From Marinomonas sp. SBI8L (lineage in GTDB: Bacteria; Pseudomonadota; Gammaproteobacteria; Pseudomonadales; Marinomonadaceae), in the NCBI RefSeq assembly GCF_001624705.1, contig NZ_JSEO01000011.1, positions 62,001-126,000 of the forward strand: 64,000 nucleotides of DNA, read 5' to 3'. Positions 8,200-40,241 of this stretch are shown here, one piece after another. The position numbers and the translations under genes were made by a program. The notes under the pieces were generated by a model, which made no database searches, was not told the origin of the DNA, and was given only the letters and a program-made list of their open reading frames with translations. Each line of letters begins with the position of its first letter. Positions within the stretch are counted from its first letter, which is position 1.

Positions 8200-10230
8200 A
8201 TGTCTGTATCAGTATGGGACGCAACAAAACTACCTGAGTTCTCCAGCATTAAATTGGCTGAAGTAGAACAAGGGCTAGATGCTATTCTGGCTGCAAACCG
8301 AGATAAAATAGAAGCTTTGACTAAGCGTGAACTGAACGAAATTAGCTGGGCAAACTTTGCAGCCCCGATGGAAACCCTAAGTGATGAACTAAACCAATAC
8401 TGGTCACCAGTAAGTCATTTAAATATGGTGCAAAACACGCCTGAATTAAGAGATGTGTATAACGCTTGCCTACCTAAGCTGACTCAGTACTTTACTGACC
8501 TTGGGCAAAATAAAGCCTTATACCAAGCTTATAAAACGTTAGCTGAGCAAGGCACCGATTTAGATACCGCTCAAAAAGAAGCACTGCGTCAAAATATTCG
8601 TTCTTTTGAATTATCTGGCGTGGCGTTAGAAGGCGATAAAAAACAAAGGTACGGCGAAATCAGTACTCGTTTATCAGAGCTAAGCAGTAAGTTTGGTGAG
8701 AATGTTTTAGATGCCACTCGCGCTTGGACTAAGCTGATCACAGATGAGGCGGAGTTAGCGGGTTTACCTGAGTCTGCTCTGGCACAAGCTAAACAAATGG
8801 CTCAAGCAAAAGAGTTAGACGGTTGGTTGTTTACCTTGGATGCTCCATCTTTCATGCCAGTAATGAGCTACGCGGATAATCGAGAGTTAAGATTTGAAAT
8901 GTATCAAGCCTTCTCTACTCGTGCCTCTAACCAAGGGCCAAATGCTAACGAATTTGATAATGCACCTCTTATTGATGAAATGTTGGTGCTTAAGAAAGAA
9001 AAGGCAGGCATTTTAGGCTTTGATAATTACGCCGAGTTATCGGTCGCGACTAAGATGGCGGATAACGGTCAGCAAGTTATCGATTTCCTTGAAGATCTAG
9101 CGATTAAATCTAAACCCGCTGCAGCGCAAGATTTAGCTGAGTTGAGTGATTACGTGAAGAATGAGTTTGCAGTTACCGAGTTAGAAGCTTGGGATGTAGG
9201 CTACTACTCAGAGAAACTTCGTGAGCATAAATACGCCATTTCTCAAGAAGTGTTAAGACCTTATTTCCCAATTGATAAGGCGTTAGCTGGTCTCTTTAAA
9301 GTGGCTAATAGCCTATTTGATGTGGAAATACGTGAAGAAGCTGAATTTGATACTTACCATGAAGACGTGAAGCTCTTCACTGTCAGTAAATCTGGTGTGG
9401 ATGTGGCGCGTTTCTACCTTGACCCTTTTGCCCGAGAAGGCAAACGTGGTGGCGCTTGGATGGATGACTGTCGTTGCCGTTATCGCATGGAAGACGGTCG
9501 CTTACAGCTGCCTGTTGCTTACCTTGTCTGTAACTTTACCGCTCCAATTGATGGCAAACCGTCGCTTTTGACTCACAATGAACTGACGACCTTATTCCAT
9601 GAGTTTGGCCATGGCCTGCACCATATGCTGACACAAGTGGAAGTATTAGATGTATCTGGTATTTCAGGTGTGGCTTGGGATGCTGTCGAGTTACCAAGTC
9701 AGTTTATGGAAAATTGGTGTTGGCAAGAAGAGGCATTAGCCTTCATTGCTTGCCATCATGAAACCGGTGAAACCTTACCTGCCGAACTACTTGAAAAAAT
9801 GCTGGCAGCGAAAAACTTCCATGCAGCCATGCAAATGGTACGACAGTTAGAGTTTTCACTCTTCGACTTCAGACTACATAGAGAGTATCAAGAGGGTACA
9901 GATGTTCAGGGATTACTAGATGAGGTACGCTCAAATGTAGCTGTTGTTAAAGCGCCTGCATTTAATCGCTTTCAGACGGCATTTTCTCATATCTTTGCGG
10001 GTGGTTACTCGGCTGGCTATTACAGCTATAAATGGGCTGAAGTGCTATCTGCCGATGCTTTCTCTAAGTTTGAAGAAGAGGGTATTTTTAACGCTGAAAC
10101 AGGTCTAGCTTTTAGAAGTACAGTGCTAGAAAATGGTGGCTCACGCCCAGCTGCGGAGCTTTTCTCTGCTTTTAGAGGCCGCGAACCTAGCATAGACGCC
10201 TTACTTCGCCACAACGGCATAGCGGCTTAA
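8200..10230 (+). CDS. prlC: oligopeptidase A (M3 metallopeptidase)
   Basis: This 676-aa cytoplasmic zinc peptidase degrades short peptides, including cleaved signal peptides. The active site is HEFGH at 467-471 (in LTTLFHEFGHGLHHML), with the third zinc ligand in the following WDAVELPSQFMENW. The family C-terminus FAGGYSAGYYSYKWAEVLSADAFSKFEEEGIF is intact. The length is normal for the family. The gene is alone between a divergent carbonic anhydrase and a strong terminator. Confidence 0.95.
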   Translation: MSVSVWDATKLPEFSSIKLAEVEQGLDAILAANRDKIEALTKRELNEISWANFAAPMETLSDELNQYWSPVSHLNMVQNTPELRDVYNACLPKLTQYFTDLGQNKALYQAYKTLAEQGTDLDTAQKEALRQNIRSFELSGVALEGDKKQRYGEISTRLSELSSKFGENVLDATRAWTKLITDEAELAGLPESALAQAKQMAQAKELDGWLFTLDAPSFMPVMSYADNRELRFEMYQAFSTRASNQGPNANEFDNAPLIDEMLVLKKEKAGILGFDNYAELSVATKMADNGQQVIDFLEDLAIKSKPAAAQDLAELSDYVKNEFAVTELEAWDVGYYSEKLREHKYAISQEVLRPYFPIDKALAGLFKVANSLFDVEIREEAEFDTYHEDVKLFTVSKSGVDVARFYLDPFAREGKRGGAWMDDCRCRYRMEDGRLQLPVAYLVCNFTAPIDGKPSLLTHNELTTLFHEFGHGLHHMLTQVEVLDVSGISGVAWDAVELPSQFMENWCWQEEALAFIACHHETGETLPAELLEKMLAAKNFHAAMQMVRQLEFSLFDFRLHREYQEGTDVQGLLDEVRSNVAVVKAPAFNRFQTAFSHIFAGGYSAGYYSYKWAEVLSADAFSKFEEEGIFNAETGLAFRSTVLENGGSRPAAELFSAFRGREPSIDALLRHNGIAA

Positions 10231-10616: not shown

Positions 10617-10987
10617 AAGTGCCTCAAAGAGGATCTAAGCGTGATCAAACCGTAAAGCGCTTAGATCTGATTACAATCTCTCCCGCTCCACTCCTTATTT
10701 CCCCATTACCTCCTGTTGATTTAGGTAACTCGAGTTTTTTAACTTACTGAGTTTATGCAAATAGTTTGCTTATTAGCTGCAAGCTACTCTTGTTTAATCA
10801 AACGCTTAATCAATATTTTAGAATGCTAATTTATTGAAATATAAAACAATTGAGCTATTTTATGTGTCGTTAGTCAGCTTAGGCCTAATTTTGTATAAAA
10901 AACGGTCGATAACTGAAAGATAAGAGTAAGCTTCTGTGTACTTACTCGTTGAAAGGGAGTACTGGGTATCTAGAGGGGCAATGTGTG
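10617..10987. other. gene-free stretch with one hairpin
   Basis: About 370 bases lie between the YheV-like gene and the lipoprotein. The arms GATCTAAGCG (10632-10641) and CGCTTAGATC (10658-10667) can form a 10-bp hairpin with a 16-nt loop just after the YheV-like gene. No T run follows, so it is not a classic terminator. The rest is AT-rich and must contain the lipoprotein promoter. I see no RNA gene. Confidence 0.4.
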
Positions 10988-11548
10988 ATGTTTGTTTCTG
11001 CTGTATTGCGTTTTATTTGTTTGAGTGTGTTGTTGGTGCCTTTGGCATCCTGTGTGGCCGTGCCTGATTTTGAGGCCATGTTTGGCCCTTATAAAAGCGC
11101 CAAACTGGAAGGTCAAAATATCAAAATTATGGCTGAAGATAAGTCATTTGAAATCGTACCGGGTGAATTTGAACCTCCTTTTCAAACAACGCCTATGTCC
11201 CCCATTATTTGGACGTCTATTTACAGCGAAACCCTCCCCGACGGTTCTATATATGACACCAGTCTCGCTGACTCTGCCAGCCATGCATTAACTTATGGCG
11301 CTAAGAAAGTGAGGCTTTATCACCCTGTTGTCGATCAACCTTTGTACGGGGTGTTACTTTTTAATCAGAAACCTGTCACTGCTGTCGGTTCAGCCGCTAA
11401 TTTTTATTCGATCCAAATACCAGAAGCTAAAATAGCTAAGGTGAAACAGGGTTCGGTGCAAGTCTTATATGAATCGGTCGATCGTACCGATTACAGTATC
11501 AATATGTATGCTTGGGTGCTTTGGGTATCCGATCAGCCTTTCGAGTAA
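10988..11548 (+). CDS. putative lipoprotein, unknown function
   Basis: The protein is 186 aa from the ATG at 10988, which has GAGGGG at 10973-10978. The frame is open further upstream but has no good start there. The N-terminus is a lipoprotein signal: a hydrophobic core (LRFICLSVLLVPL) and the lipobox LASC, with the lipidated cysteine near residue 22. The mature domain (VPDFEAMFGPYKSAKLEGQNIKIM onward) has no motif that I recognise and looks beta-rich. It appears monocistronic. Confidence 0.6.
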   Translation: MFVSAVLRFICLSVLLVPLASCVAVPDFEAMFGPYKSAKLEGQNIKIMAEDKSFEIVPGEFEPPFQTTPMSPIIWTSIYSETLPDGSIYDTSLADSASHALTYGAKKVRLYHPVVDQPLYGVLLFNQKPVTAVGSAANFYSIQIPEAKIAKVKQGSVQVLYESVDRTDYSINMYAWVLWVSDQPFE

Positions 11549-11689
11549 AAACTGCTTTTTTCTTTTACGGGTTAATTTAAGTCTTTTGTCGAACAAAGCA
11601 TATCTCTTCGTTTCTTTAGAGCGTATAGTGCAAAAAACTAGTCTTATATAAGACTGATTCTGTACTTAAGAGCTATTTAGGGAAGAAGC

Positions 11690-12442
11690 ATGGTATTCGA
11701 TTTAAACATCTTGTTTTTGCTGGTGGTATTCGCCATAGGTAGCTATGTACAAGCGAGTACTGGCTTTGCGTTTGGCTTGATTGTTATCAGTAGTATATCG
11801 GCCTTGGGCTTAGCGCCAATTGAAGTAACAGCCTTTGTGGTGAGCTTGCTAAGCTTGATGAATTCCATGATAGGTCTGCAAGGTGGACAATGGCGCAAAG
11901 CAAACTTTAAAGCCATCCTATACTTTTCTATCCCTTGTTTACCGGCAACCTTTGTTGGCATTTGGCTATTAGCTTTTTTAGGTGAAAATCAGCTAAATAT
12001 ACTTAAGATTATTTTAGGTGTAACGATTGTGGGCAGTAGTTTAGTCATGATGTTACAGACGAATTTAGCAAAGAAAGGCTCTTCGATTCCTGTTTTTTTA
12101 TTAGGTGGACTCTCATCAGGCTTGATTGGTGGTCTGTTTTCTACTTTTGGTCCACCCTTAACCTATATTATGTATCGACAGCCAGATACTTTAAGAACCA
12201 TTAGAACCACACTCTTATTGGTGTTCGCTATTACCTCAATTATGCGCTTATCCTTTGTTATGGCGACGCAAGAGGTAAGCATGCAAACTTACTTACTCAG
12301 CGCTATTGGCTTTCCTGCTGTCGTGTTAGCGGCGTTAGCTGCCCGCTATTACCCTATTCCTATTTCTGTCGATACCATGCGCCGTTGTGCTTATGGCATA
12401 TTACTGGCGTCTGGGATAAGTCTGATCATACAAGGTTGGTAG
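11690..12442 (+). CDS. TauE/SafE family sulfite/organosulfonate-type permease
   Basis: This 250-aa protein of the UPF0721/TauE family has about eight membrane segments. The two internal repeats each begin with the family pattern: YVQASTGFAFGLIVISSI near residue 20 and LLGGLSSGLIGGLFSTFGPPLTYI near residue 145 (GGxxGxxxGxxG...PP). Members move sulfite, sulfoacetate, formate-like or other small anions. The substrate here cannot be told. It ends tail-to-tail with the GntR regulator. Confidence 0.8.
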   Translation: MVFDLNILFLLVVFAIGSYVQASTGFAFGLIVISSISALGLAPIEVTAFVVSLLSLMNSMIGLQGGQWRKANFKAILYFSIPCLPATFVGIWLLAFLGENQLNILKIILGVTIVGSSLVMMLQTNLAKKGSSIPVFLLGGLSSGLIGGLFSTFGPPLTYIMYRQPDTLRTIRTTLLLVFAITSIMRLSFVMATQEVSMQTYLLSAIGFPAVVLAALAARYYPIPISVDTMRRCAYGILLASGISLIIQGW

Positions 12443-35883: not shown

Positions 35884-36183
35884 ATGCGAATTATATCGAG
35901 AGCAAGTTTGCGTGATTTTTGGCTACAAGCAAGTTATCGAGATGCTGAACAGCCGCTCAAATCCTGGTATGACGAAGTTAAAAAGGCTAACTGGAAAACG
36001 CCACAAGATATAAAAGCGTTATACCGAAGTGCTAGTTTTGTTGGTAATAACCGAGTTGTATTTAATATTCATGGGAATAAATACCGTTTAATTGTCGCGG
36101 TTAATTATGCTTTTGCCATGGTTTATGTGCGTTTTGTTGGTACTCATGCCCAGTATGACAAAGTGAATGCCGCAACTATCTAG
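35884..36183 (+). CDS. higB: HigB-type mRNA interferase toxin
   Basis: This 99-aa RelE-superfamily toxin of the HigB group starts MRIISRASLRDFWLQASYRDAEQPLKSWYDEVKKANWKTPQDIKALYRSASFV and continues NNRVVFNIHGNKYRLIVAVNYAFAMVYVRFVGTHAQYDKV, which is the conserved HigB core. It would cleave ribosome-bound mRNA. The toxin gene precedes the antitoxin, the order typical of higBA. The gap to the antitoxin gene is 62 bases, longer than usual. Confidence 0.93.
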   Translation: MRIISRASLRDFWLQASYRDAEQPLKSWYDEVKKANWKTPQDIKALYRSASFVGNNRVVFNIHGNKYRLIVAVNYAFAMVYVRFVGTHAQYDKVNAATI

Positions 36184-36245
36184 CTGTAACAAGATGAGTC
36201 AGAGTAAAAAAACCAAGATGTAAAAGACCAAGGGGAAAATAGAAA

Positions 36246-36602
36246 ATGCAAATTAAGCCAATTAAAACAGCCCAAGATCATAAAGCTGCCCTTGCTCGAA
36301 TCGAAGAGCTTTGGGAGGCCGAGCTTAATACGCCAGAGGGTGATGAGCTTGAAATTCTTGGCACTTTAGTCAATGTGTTTGAAGAAACACATTTCCCTAT
36401 AGATCCACCTAACCCTATCGAAGCCATTCGATTTCGTATGGAACAACAAGGCCTTGAAGATAAAGATCTAGTGCCCCTTTTGGGAACCCGCAGCCGAGTG
36501 ACAGAGATTTTAAAATTTCAGCGTCGTTTATCTTTGAATATGATACGTAAATTGCATAAAGGGCTGAACATTCCTCTGGATATTCTCATTAAGGATTATT
36601 AA
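36246..36602 (+). CDS. higA: HigA-type antitoxin
   Basis: This is a 118-aa protein. The N-terminal half is acidic and helical (EELWEAELNTPEGDELEILGTLVNVFEETHFPIDPPNPIEAIRFRMEQQGL). The C-terminal half is a helix-turn-helix of the XRE family (LVPLLGTRSRVTEILKFQRRLSLNMIRKLHKGLNIPLDILI). It neutralises HigB and should bind the two TTTCCC-N5-GGGAAA palindromes upstream of the pair. Confidence 0.92.
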   Translation: MQIKPIKTAQDHKAALARIEELWEAELNTPEGDELEILGTLVNVFEETHFPIDPPNPIEAIRFRMEQQGLEDKDLVPLLGTRSRVTEILKFQRRLSLNMIRKLHKGLNIPLDILIKDY

Positions 36603-36741
36603 TCAATGATGATAATCCTTTGCTAAAACATTCCACAGAAAACAAAACTCATACTAGATTCATCTATTCACCATCAAAACTCACGCCTCAAATACCGTCT
36701 TCAAACTAACAAGCTAAACTTTATCATTCACTATTATAAAA

Positions 36742-36828
36742 TTTATTCTTGTACATTTTTGGTTTATGTACAAGAATAAACTTATACAAAATATTTAATT
36801 GTATAGATAGCTATCTGTTTTTGTACAA
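36742..36828 (+). promoter_or_regulatory. array of TGTACA-type palindromes (putative LitR/CarH operators)
   Basis: Module 1 is a perfect 15-bp inverted repeat (36742-36756 and 36766-36780) containing TGTACA-N11-TGTACA. Module 2 is TATACAA (36783-36789), a 9-bp spacer and TTGTATA (36799-36805), that is TATACA-N11-TGTATA. The palindrome AGATAGCTATCT (36805-36816) and a third TTGTACAA (36821-36828) follow. Module centres are 33 and about 30 bp apart. The sites precede a photolyase operon, the usual target of LitR/CarH-type MerR photoreceptors. Confidence 0.7.
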
Positions 36829-36853
36829 CTTGATGGGTCTAGTGGAGAGGGCT

Positions 36854-38056
36854 ATGTCTTTTGAAAGTGAAATACCTGTTAAAAAAGAAGAAGCTGCGAG
36901 TCGTGAAACATCCGCTGAGTGTATTGATGTTGCGATTATCGGAGCAGGGACATCAGGGTGTTTGATGGCGAACTTGTTGCAGGAAGCAGATATTAATTGT
37001 GTTTTGATTGAAAAAAGCCGTGGTCTAGGAGGGCGTTGTAGTCGCAGGCGTGTAACGGTTTCTGCGCCTTTATCGGCTTCTCCAAATAGGCTGTCTAACA
37101 AGGGCACGAATAACGAACATCAAGTAAGCCTTGATATGGGGGCCGCGTCATTTTCGCCAGAATCTATTAAGTATAAGGCCCTTGAAGATCGCATTCATAC
37201 TTGGCAAGAAGCCGGGGTTTTGACCTCTTGGCGCTATCAGACTTGTCACTTTGGGTTCGAAGCCTTTGAGCACCTTGAAGAGCCAGCCTTCGAGCTGACT
37301 GCGTTTCCTTCTATGAACACTTGGCACAAACATATGGCAACTGGGGTCAGGCAAATTACCTCTTGTCGGGTCAGCCAAATTAATCAAATGAGTTCGGTAT
37401 GGTACTTATACGATGAGGAGGGGGAGCTTATTGTGATGGCCAATAAGGTCGTTATCACCAGCCCTGCTGAGCAAGCCTTAGACTTGTTAACTGCCTCAGA
37501 ATTAGTTGAAAAATCAGCAGAATATCAAAGCGTTAAGACGGCTTCTGAGATGAGTTTGGGGCAGTATGTTTGTGCTATAGAAACCAATACTTTTTTTGAT
37601 CACAGGGTTGGTGTGTATCAAGGAGGGCATGGCATTTTAGCGAAAGCGACTCGTTTATCTTATAAAAGCATTTTGCATGAGGCGGTCAATCATGCCACCG
37701 ATAAAGATATCTGGATGCTAGAAAGCTGTCCTAAATGGGCCAAGGCACAAGAACAAGAGGGTGTTTCTCACGAAGAAGCTGCTTTAGAGATGGCCCAAGC
37801 CTTCTGTTTACAGTTTGCCATTCATGATCCAGTGCGTATTTTAACGTCCCATTACTGGCGTTTAGCTCGGCATAGGGTGGGTTCAGATGAAAGCCTCTCT
37901 TATATTTTAGATACAGAATCCAATCTAGGGATTTGTGGAGACTGGTTAGATTCTGGTGACGTTGCAGGAGCGCTTAACAGTGCTCAAAGTCTTTTTAATG
38001 CTATGAATCAAGAACTTATAAATTCTGATCTAAATCAGCAAGAGGAGAGGATATGA
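36854..38056 (+). CDS. FAD-dependent oxidoreductase (renalase/amine oxidase-like)
   Basis: This 400-aa flavoprotein has a dinucleotide-binding fold, IDVAIIGAGTSGCLMANLLQEADINCVLIEKSRGLGGRCSRRR, and an FAD C-terminal motif region near LGICGDWLDSGDVAGALNSAQSLFNAM. The frame runs upstream to 36749, but that part overlaps the palindromic operator array. The ATG at 36854 with GGAGAGG is the better start. The gene overlaps the following SDR gene by four bases. Homologues of this family neighbour phrB in other gammaproteobacteria, where they belong to the light-induced regulon. The substrate is unknown. Confidence 0.85.
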   Translation: MSFESEIPVKKEEAASRETSAECIDVAIIGAGTSGCLMANLLQEADINCVLIEKSRGLGGRCSRRRVTVSAPLSASPNRLSNKGTNNEHQVSLDMGAASFSPESIKYKALEDRIHTWQEAGVLTSWRYQTCHFGFEAFEHLEEPAFELTAFPSMNTWHKHMATGVRQITSCRVSQINQMSSVWYLYDEEGELIVMANKVVITSPAEQALDLLTASELVEKSAEYQSVKTASEMSLGQYVCAIETNTFFDHRVGVYQGGHGILAKATRLSYKSILHEAVNHATDKDIWMLESCPKWAKAQEQEGVSHEEAALEMAQAFCLQFAIHDPVRILTSHYWRLARHRVGSDESLSYILDTESNLGICGDWLDSGDVAGALNSAQSLFNAMNQELINSDLNQQEERI

Positions 38057-38817
38057 GCACTTTCGAAGAGACTCTTAAAGCTGCCAATATTAAAAAAGTT
38101 GTCATCCTTGGCTGCTCTGGTGCCATAGGTAATGCCCTCGTTGAGACGCTTATTAGCCGCTTTCCTGAGGCGAGTGTTTATGGTTTTTCTCGCACTTCTC
38201 ATTCTCACTCCTTTAGTGAAAAATTAGATAGATATCAAGAAGCTAGGATTGATTATGAGGATGAAGAGTCAATCGCGAAATGTGCTGCTTTGGCGGCAGA
38301 AACGGGCCCGCTTGATTTAGTCATAGTGGCGACTGGCATATTGCATCAAGGAGGGCTAATGCCAGAGAAATCATTGAGAGACTTATCGGCTGAAAAAATG
38401 ATGGCGCTTTATCAAGCCAACTGCATTACGCCCACTCTTTTGGCCAAACATTTTATTCCGCAACTAAGTAAAAAGTCAGCCTCGGTTTTTGCCGCCTTAT
38501 CAGCCAGAGTGGGCAGTATCTCTGATAATGCTTTAGGTGGCTGGTATGCTTATCGTGCTTCTAAATCTGCCCTTAATATGGTGATTAAAAATGCGGGCAT
38601 TGAAACCGCAAGACGTAACAAGAGCGCCATCATAGTGGGCTTGCATCCAGGCACAGTAGACAGTGATTTATCTAAGCCATTTCAGGCCAATGTCCCTGCA
38701 GGTAAGCTCTTTCGACCTCTTGATTCAGCAAATTATTTATTGGAAACCCTATTAGAGTTAACTCCCAGTCAAACGGGTAAATGCTTTGCTTGGGATGGTC
38801 AGGAGATAGCCCCATGA
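38053..38817 (+). CDS. short-chain dehydrogenase/reductase (CsgA-like)
   Basis: This 254-aa NAD(P)-dependent SDR has the cofactor motif VVILGCSGAIGNALVETLI, the DLVIVATGILHQGG segment (NNAG equivalent), the active-site Ser in SVFAALSARVGSI, and YAYRASKSALNM for the catalytic YxxxK. The gene overlaps its upstream neighbour by four bases and phrB by four bases, so the three form one translationally coupled operon. Its substrate in the light response is unknown. Confidence 0.87.
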   Translation: MSTFEETLKAANIKKVVILGCSGAIGNALVETLISRFPEASVYGFSRTSHSHSFSEKLDRYQEARIDYEDEESIAKCAALAAETGPLDLVIVATGILHQGGLMPEKSLRDLSAEKMMALYQANCITPTLLAKHFIPQLSKKSASVFAALSARVGSISDNALGGWYAYRASKSALNMVIKNAGIETARRNKSAIIVGLHPGTVDSDLSKPFQANVPAGKLFRPLDSANYLLETLLELTPSQTGKCFAWDGQEIAP

Positions 38818-40241
38818 ATAGACCTTTAGTGATTCATTGGTTTCGCCAAGACCTACGTTTATCTGATAACCCTGCATTAATGGCAGCGGTTAACCAAGGA
38901 AACGTTCTGCCTATTTATATTCTTGATGATAAGAATGCTAACGAATGGGCGATGGGAGGAGCCAGCCGCTGGTGGTTACATCATTCTTTAAATGCGCTAG
39001 ATACCACACTCGCTGGACGTTTAAACTTGTATAAGGGTGAGCCGCTTCAGGTGCTGTTAGCGCTTATTGAGAGGCTTGGTGTGACGCATGTGGTTTGGAA
39101 TCGTTGTTATGAGCCTTGGCGCATGCGACGAGATGAGAAGATTAAGCTGGCACTGAAAGAGAAGGGTATTCAAGTCGAAAGCTATAATGGGTCGCTTCTA
39201 TGGGAGCCTTGGCAGATTAAAAAGCCGGACGGCACAGCATATAAAGTTTTCACACCTTTTTATCGTAAAGGTTGTTTAAAAGCCGAAATGCCAAGGGAAC
39301 CTTTGCCCAGACCTGACAATAATGATGTTTATCTTGTTGATGATAACTGTCAGACCTTAGAGCGTTTAAATCTCTTGCCAAAAGTGGCTTGGGATGAGGC
39401 ATTTAAAGGCCTGTGGCAGATAGGGGAAGACAAGGCGCAAAGTCAGTTTTTTCAGTTCCTAAAAGAAGGCTTAGCTAATTATAAAGAAGGTCGTAATATC
39501 CCTTCAAAGTCTTTTGTGACACGCCTTTCTCCTCATATTCATTTTGGTGAGATCTCGCCAAATCAGCTCTGGTATGGGGCGCAAAGAGAAGCAGATAATG
39601 AGCACGTCGATCATTTTTGTAGTGAGCTTGGTTGGCGTGAATTCTCCTATAGCCAATTGTTTTTGAATCCAGACTTACCTACTCAAAACCTTCAACCTAA
39701 GTTTGATGACTTCCCTTGGTTGGCAGACGATGGAACCCATGAAGGCGCGCTACTCAGGGCTTGGCAACAAGGAAAAACAGGCATTCCCATGGTTGATGCT
39801 GGTATGCGAGAGCTATGGCAAACAGGTTATATGCATAACAGGGTACGCATGATTGTTGCTTCCTTTTTGGTTAAAAATTTGCGTATTCACTGGCATCACG
39901 GTGAGCGCTGGTTTTGGGATACTTTATTGGATGCGGATCTTGCTAACAACAGTGCCAGTTGGCAGTGGGTTGCAGGTTCTGGTGCAGATGCCGCCCCATA
40001 CTTCAGGATATTTAACCCTGTAGTACAGGGGCAGAAATTTGATGGGGAAGGAGAGTATATTAAAAAGTTTGTACCCGAAATTTCTTTGTTACCGAAAAAG
40101 TACCTATTCTCCCCTTGGGAGGCTCCTGAACTCGTGCTGCAAGAGGCTGGCGTTAAATTGGGAGAGACTTACCCTAACCCTATCATTGATTTAAAAGCCT
40201 CCCGCGAAGCCGCATTAGAGGCATTTAAATCACTTAAATAA
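38814..40241 (+). CDS. phrB: deoxyribodipyrimidine photolyase
   Basis: This 475-aa enzyme uses blue light to repair cyclobutane pyrimidine dimers. The N-terminal antenna domain starts VIHWFRQDLRLSDNPAL. The FAD domain contains SPHIHFGEISPNQLW, CSELGWREFSYSQLF, GIPMVDAGMRELWQTGYMHNRVRMIVASFLVKNL and WFWDTLLDADLANNSASWQWVAGSGADAAPYFRIFNPVVQGQKFD. This includes the electron-transfer Trp residues and the Asn of class I CPD photolyases. The ATG at 38814 (AGGAG upstream) is used; the longer frame overlaps the SDR gene. It is the last gene of the putative light operon. Confidence 0.95.
   Translation: MNRPLVIHWFRQDLRLSDNPALMAAVNQGNVLPIYILDDKNANEWAMGGASRWWLHHSLNALDTTLAGRLNLYKGEPLQVLLALIERLGVTHVVWNRCYEPWRMRRDEKIKLALKEKGIQVESYNGSLLWEPWQIKKPDGTAYKVFTPFYRKGCLKAEMPREPLPRPDNNDVYLVDDNCQTLERLNLLPKVAWDEAFKGLWQIGEDKAQSQFFQFLKEGLANYKEGRNIPSKSFVTRLSPHIHFGEISPNQLWYGAQREADNEHVDHFCSELGWREFSYSQLFLNPDLPTQNLQPKFDDFPWLADDGTHEGALLRAWQQGKTGIPMVDAGMRELWQTGYMHNRVRMIVASFLVKNLRIHWHHGERWFWDTLLDADLANNSASWQWVAGSGADAAPYFRIFNPVVQGQKFDGEGEYIKKFVPEISLLPKKYLFSPWEAPELVLQEAGVKLGETYPNPIIDLKASREAALEAFKSLK

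Follow-up and report, generated by a model that had tools for sequence, protein, structure and literature searches.

A conserved TGTACA operator array probably places a Marinomonas photolyase operon under a LitR/CarH-type repressor encoded elsewhere in the genome

What regulates a photolyase operon that stands behind a series of palindromes and otherwise looks like an orphan? We have addressed this question in a 64-kb window (G000:C3:62001-126000) of a Marinomonas genome of 5.19 Mb in 69 contigs, where genes for a flavin adenine dinucleotide (FAD)-dependent oxidoreductase, a short-chain dehydrogenase/reductase (SDR) and a DNA photolyase follow a set of TGTACA-type inverted repeats. A sequence-only reading had taken these repeats as the target of a B12-dependent photoreceptor of the LitR/CarH type encoded elsewhere. 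We consider it likely that positions 36742-36828 form a multi-site operator through which a cobalamin-independent, class II-like repressor of the LitR/CarH family, encoded on contig C35, keeps the operon repressed in the dark. The orphan-looking operon would thus be tied to its likely regulator through conserved operator spacing.

The array occupies part of the intergenic region (36603-36853; 251 bp, about 70% A+T) that precedes the operon, and none of its elements is assigned to a strand. Module 1, TGTACA-N11-TGTACA (36750-36772), is enclosed by a perfect 15-bp inverted repeat with arms at 36742-36756 and 36766-36780 (arms of 18 nt match at 94%), and module 2, TATACA-N11-TGTATA (36783-36805), follows 33 bp downstream; both modules, and the repeat, are present as the sequence-only reading had described them. 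A third TGTACA half-site (36822-36827) stands 22 bp after the TGTATA of module 2, so that successive half-sites are stepped by 17, 16, 17 and 22 bp. With gaps of 0-24 allowed in TRTACA-gap-TGTAYA, modules 1 and 2 are the sole matches in the window, and with gaps of 10-13 they are two of the three places in the whole genome; the chance of two of three random places falling so close together is about 6e-5. Among 20,000 dinucleotide shuffles of the intergenic region, six contained at least one N11 module and none contained two, while at least three TGTACA appeared in two. No intrinsic terminator was found in the array.

Further support comes from Marinomonas sp. MED121 (G036), the single named organism in which our scan of genome contigs placed a relative of the FAD gene (78-79% identical). 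All four half-sites of the two modules are kept in MED121, as is the leader to the start codon, whereas divergence is seen in the spacer upstream and, within module 2, between its half-sites. The third TGTACA is also conserved there, at 19 rather than 22 bp. MED121 lacks the AGATAGCTATCT palindrome (36805-36816), which had been counted as a member of the array; we have rejected it as an operator part, and it is probably incidental. Comparison of the two strains thus supports both N11 modules as well as the third half-site. We note that the region directly before the array (35884-36602) holds a HigB-type toxin gene (PF09907) and then an open reading frame of 118 amino acids that has no Pfam match and resembles a HigA antitoxin by eye.

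The window's genome contains eight genes with a MerR-type helix-turn-helix (HTH); two (L003 and L008) were read, and the other six have frames of 115-186 amino acids. The candidate regulator is a LitR/CarH/MlrA-type MerR protein of 291 amino acids encoded on contig C35 (L009 8806-9681), which at an E value of 1e-20 has no match in its own genome except itself. Its N-terminal HTH aligns with CarH, CarH structures are among its best matches in PDB sequences, and its best NCBIfam models are MlrA (86 bits, cut-off 417) and CarH (43.7 bits, cut-off 400), while MlrA_helical matches at E 0.0048, under the cut-off. In an alignment of 25 of the 45 orthologous proteins found in the genus, the C-terminal half varies and keeps few residues invariant. 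Class II LitR proteins retain only the four-helix-bundle portion of the B12 module; here PF02607 is matched weakly in seven of the 25 (best E 0.00093), and the protein from the window's genome has no match to it.

On C35, the stretch L009 7778-11930 carries genes for a TIGR01777 oxidoreductase, the MerR protein, a DUF547 protein and a RudS-type protein, the last (10932-11930) with a TudS-type domain (PF04463) fused to DUF1722 (PF08349), an architecture of the RudS family described in PMC11417400. TGTACA occurs at 9741 and 9773, between merR and the DUF547 gene, and at 10837, 10870 and 10902, before rudS. Before rudS, 10837-10907 and the matching place in locus L055 each carry three half-sites (TGTACA or TGTATA) stepped by 32-33 bp, an arrangement that the two species share. 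The pattern TGTACA-N(24-29)-TGTACA (steps of 30-35 bp), which was chosen after these sites had been seen, has four places in the genome, three of them before the merR/DUF547 pair and rudS, against one place for the control; the chance of such pairs in a given 1.2 kb, calculated after the fact, is about 5e-11. The same half-sites and a 32-33 bp step therefore mark both the regulator locus and the photolyase operon, and the C35 protein is the likely regulator of the window operon, acting in trans. Thus the prediction of a LitR/CarH-type array with a regulator elsewhere, which the lack of any LitR/CarH-type gene was to have refuted, holds in the wider sense of that family, whereas its strict form, a B12-dependent photoreceptor, is not supported, for reasons that we come to below.

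The same association is seen throughout the genus. We searched 49 genomes, the window's own included, and found a merR orthologue in 45; it was not matched in G016, G017, G038 and G042 (the last 77% complete), and the counts of clusters given here cover the 45 merR loci, with open reading frames taken mechanically. An N11 module lies upstream of merR in 37 of the 45 genomes, against none in 100 rounds of shuffles, and pairs with a gap of 10 are present in 26. The gap of 12 known from Pseudomonas is found upstream of merR in none of the 45, and we have rejected it as the spacing rule here. Distances that recur between half-sites are 16 bp (35/45), 17 bp (37/45), 22 bp (20/45) and 55 bp (22/45), together with 33 and 38-39 bp. 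In 31 genomes the array upstream of merR also includes a promoter-like TTG(A/C)(T/A)T-N16-TATATT, with a TGTACA or TATACA half-site inside its spacer in 25 of them.

In 43 of the 45 genomes merR is divergent from a cluster of RudS-type and photolyase genes, and a renalase-like FAD gene comes first in 40 of these clusters; none was found in the other three (L070, L072 and L077). A photolyase accompanies all 45 merR genes (43 in the cluster, two in a relocated operon) and a renalase-like protein 42. A MarR-like gene, judged by eye (cluster c4), follows the photolyase at 42 of the 45 loci (L057-L098); the three loci without it belong to the window's species, MED121 and G034. The DUF547 and TIGR01777 genes occur only at the loci of the window's species and MED121. 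It is in these same two alone that merR and the FAD-SDR-photolyase operon are separated, in MED121 by about 261 kb on one contig. In gene trees (21-22 rows per gene, made by a quick method and unrooted) their nearest relative is G034. There the cluster is joined to merR, and the stretch that separates merR from the FAD gene carries two N11 modules at a spacing of 33 bp; both N11 modules are present at the MED121 operon. The split between operon and regulator therefore has the look of a derived state, with the double module apparently retained by the operon.

The three genes of the operon, all on the plus strand, encode a FAD-dependent oxidoreductase of 400 amino acids (36854..38056), an SDR of 254 (38053..38817) and a photolyase of 475 (38814..40241), and each junction shares the four bases ATGA, as had been noted from the sequence. 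The solved structure nearest to the photolyase is 4u63 (454.9 bits, against 256 for the E. coli enzyme, 1dnp), that is, Agrobacterium PhrA, which we take to be a class III cyclobutane pyrimidine dimer (CPD) photolyase. The window's photolyase contains GWREF and ANNxxWQW, motifs whose role is known from the E. coli photolyase; across 45 photolyase rows, L-x-WREF is found in only three and ANNxxWQW in 41. The G034 photolyase is likewise nearest to 4u63, while for the one other photolyase of the genus that was tested the E. coli enzyme is the closer match. The window photolyase is 87% identical to that of MED121 and 59% identical to that of G034, against 30-34% for the 42 other genomes, a pattern that suggests an exchange of one photolyase type for another beneath an operator of similar kind.

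The sequence-only reading had left the roles of the other two enzymes undefined. For the SDR, the nearest NCBIfam model is PRK09009, at 229.5 bits and below the model's cut-off of 330. The FAD enzyme can be narrowed to a renalase-like oxidase: a profile of 17 proteins (the window's and 16 of the 42 listed) matched 3kkj and 4zcc at E 2e-68 and 4e-68 over positions 14-331 of 336, and the window protein alone matched bacterial renalase at E 6e-15, and this nearly full-length similarity makes it a member of the bacterial renalase family. According to work on the human enzyme (PMC7660482), the substrates that renalases oxidise are inhibitory isomers of NAD(P)H, namely the 1,2- and 1,6-forms. RudS strips 4-thiouridine from transfer RNA (tRNA) and is frequent in light-responsive operons, according to PMC11417400.

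How might the array work? Taking P. mendocina PmlR2, E. coli BluR and M. xanthus CarA as models for how the repressor binds, how its dimers are arranged, how it represses in the dark and how light releases it, we propose that in the dark repressor dimers would occupy inverted TRTACA/TGTAYA pairs with 10-11 bp between the half-sites. Adjacent pairs 33-39 bp apart would allow cooperative binding over the promoter, and RNA polymerase would be blocked. Light would then inactivate the repressor independently of cobalamin, through a partner or a chromophore, and the derepressed set would comprise the divergent merR and DUF547 genes, rudS (whose product, by family, would be a tRNA 4-thiouridine desulfidase) and the renalase-SDR-photolyase operon. 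Together the products may counter photodamage, by repair or by prevention, in DNA, in tRNA and perhaps in nicotinamide cofactors.

Several observations weigh against this model. Eight of the 45 genomes, those of the window's species and MED121 among them, have no N11 module upstream of merR, and in the window's genome the promoters of merR and rudS carry TGTACA pairs at 32-33 bp and no strict N11 module. Across the genome the N10-13 motif is not commoner than a reversed control pattern (three places against four; three against one when restricted to N11-12), so it is the clustering that is raised and not the count itself. By hand count at least 40 N11 places in at least 31 genomes of the genus lie near merR, at least four belong to the photolyase operons in G000 and G036, and at least 12 lie elsewhere; the one of these 12 that was opened (G036:C7:241278) falls inside an open reading frame that looks glycosyltransferase-like by eye. 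Finally, no convincing sigma-70 promoter was found in the window array (two sites, against 1.7 in shuffles), and its best match to the promoter-like pattern of the genus agrees at eight of 12 positions.

By what route could light reach such a repressor? Two answers are variants of the model above, so that their probabilities and that of the model are not parts of one whole. The better of the two, which we regard as a possibility of somewhat under even chance, is that light is sensed by the MerR protein directly, or that this protein responds to photo-oxidative stress, with no separate photoreceptor. In Vibrio cholerae, as reported in PMC5241685, part of the blue-light response is mediated by a MerR-type protein (VCA0056) together with ChrR, no photoreceptor having been recognised, and the response survives a triple knockout of photolyase/cryptochrome genes; PMC9758184 describes a class III LitR that has no B12 domain and shifts its spectrum in light. 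Searches for partner photoreceptors point the same way. The LOV pattern [R/S]NCRFLQ, sought in DNA as a motif test with no positive control, was found in none of the 49 genomes, and a looser pattern gave 14 places in 12 genomes, all in open frames of 10-87 amino acids, too short for LOV; we have rejected LOV input on this basis. By hand count, BLUF domains were not matched in 15 of the 45 genomes with merR, and G013 additionally has its match in two pieces with a stop. Neither LOV nor BLUF, as sought, therefore explains the whole genus. Against self-sensing, no chromophore-binding signature was seen, and the C-terminal half is variable among the 25 MerR orthologues, as described above.

Rather less probable, though still worth considering, is that a BLUF photoreceptor acts as a light-dependent antirepressor of the MerR protein, by analogy with BluF and BluR. 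The window's genome has three BLUF genes, and the best NCBIfam model of the MerR protein is MlrA, a paralogue of BluR according to PMC3509220. Two of the BLUF proteins, of 139 and 140 amino acids and alike by eye, are encoded in tandem (L102, G000:C2:50000-64000). However, the BLUF genes are on contigs other than that of merR; across the genus BLUF is matched in 32 of the 49 genomes, but by hand count 15 of the 45 with merR lack a match and two of the four without merR have one. No N11-12 module lies in the stretches around the BLUF genes that were searched (L101 and L102).

Far less probable is the original proposal that a tetramer of a B12-dependent class I LitR/CarH controls the operon. It shares with our model the HTH family and the TGTACA-type half-sites, and the 33 bp between modules is three times the 11-bp CarH repeat (PMC8156234). 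The literature on class II LitR is divided, PMC11417400 calling these proteins adenosyl-B12-dependent and PMC9758184 stating that, judged by its domains, this class would not bind B12; we follow the latter. In the window's genome the B12-binding domain (PF02310) has a single match, in a frame of 1255 amino acids that is MetH-like by its length, so B12 does not fit this genome. Pfam gives no B12-domain match for the C35 protein at E values up to 1, and in the alignment of 25 orthologues PF02310 is matched in two, weakly (best E 0.011), and PF02607 in the seven noted earlier. We have rejected B12/CarH control on these grounds. Least probable of all is that the palindromes arose by chance in an intergenic region rich in A+T, since, despite that composition and a genome-wide count no higher than the reversed control, two modules appeared in none of the shuffles, the half-sites are kept in MED121 amid diverged bases, and the N11 array is linked to merR across the genus.

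We tentatively suggest a broader possibility, which we hold to be doubtful in its full extent: that a genus-wide, cobalamin-independent LitR regulon senses light without B12, LOV and, in a third of genomes, BLUF, the sensor being the repressor itself or a flavoprotein of its own operon. Light would then induce a fixed trio, a renalase-like NAD(P)H-isomer oxidase together with RudS and photolyase, for the simultaneous repair of three classes of photosensitive molecule, and the FAD enzyme may carry out repair of NAD(P)H isomers alongside the control of DNA and tRNA photodamage. What does seem to persist in this marine genus is a LitR-type circuit for which neither a B12 regulator (in the window's genome) nor LOV partners (by motif, in 49 genomes) were found, and its small, well-defined regulon makes light sensing by B12-less LitR proteins testable. 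In the open-access literature we found no paper that combines Marinomonas, photolyase and MerR; none on Marinomonas and blue light that concerned light regulation, by title; and none, among the matches listed, that brings renalase together with photolyase.

The Marinomonas system can be set beside four others. With CarA and CarH of Myxococcus and Thermus it shares the HTH domain, and the CarA operator, which spans about 55 bp and binds two dimers cooperatively (PMC8156234), recalls the 55-bp half-site distance in 22 of the 45 genomes; unlike CarA and CarH, the MerR protein has no B12-binding domain that we could find, and no carotenoid genes are among the named genes at these loci. Like BluR/BluF and MlrA of E. 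coli, it has a MerR regulator (MlrA being the best model, below its cut-off) whose GTACA half-sites overlap a promoter, and BluR covers the -35 element and spacer of the ycgZ promoter through such half-sites (PMC3509220); the target genes, however, are different, and the BLUF genes are unlinked to merR and missing from a third of the genomes that have it. VCA0056-VCA0058 of V. cholerae likewise joins a MerR-type gene to a CPD photolyase gene, in a predicted operon whose expression rises in blue light, although the description of that locus available to us from PMC5241685 does not include an operator, RudS or renalase-like genes. A further parallel is with the class II LitR proteins of Pseudomonas (PplR1-3 of P. 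putida, PmlR1 and PmlR2 of P. mendocina). According to PMC9758184, PmlR2 has TGTACA-N12-TGTACA as its target and is freed from it through a LOV protein activated by light. Marinomonas differs from these in its gap of N11 (also N10), in having no LOV protein by motif in 49 genomes and, in the window's species, in the separation of operon from regulator. It resembles them in a LitR-type MerR protein without a full B12 module, in inverted pairs of TGTACA half-sites in more than one copy and in the genes that go with them, since photolyase, SDR and FAD-oxidoreductase genes are described next to pmlR1 and RudS within a LitR operon (PMC9758184, PMC11417400).

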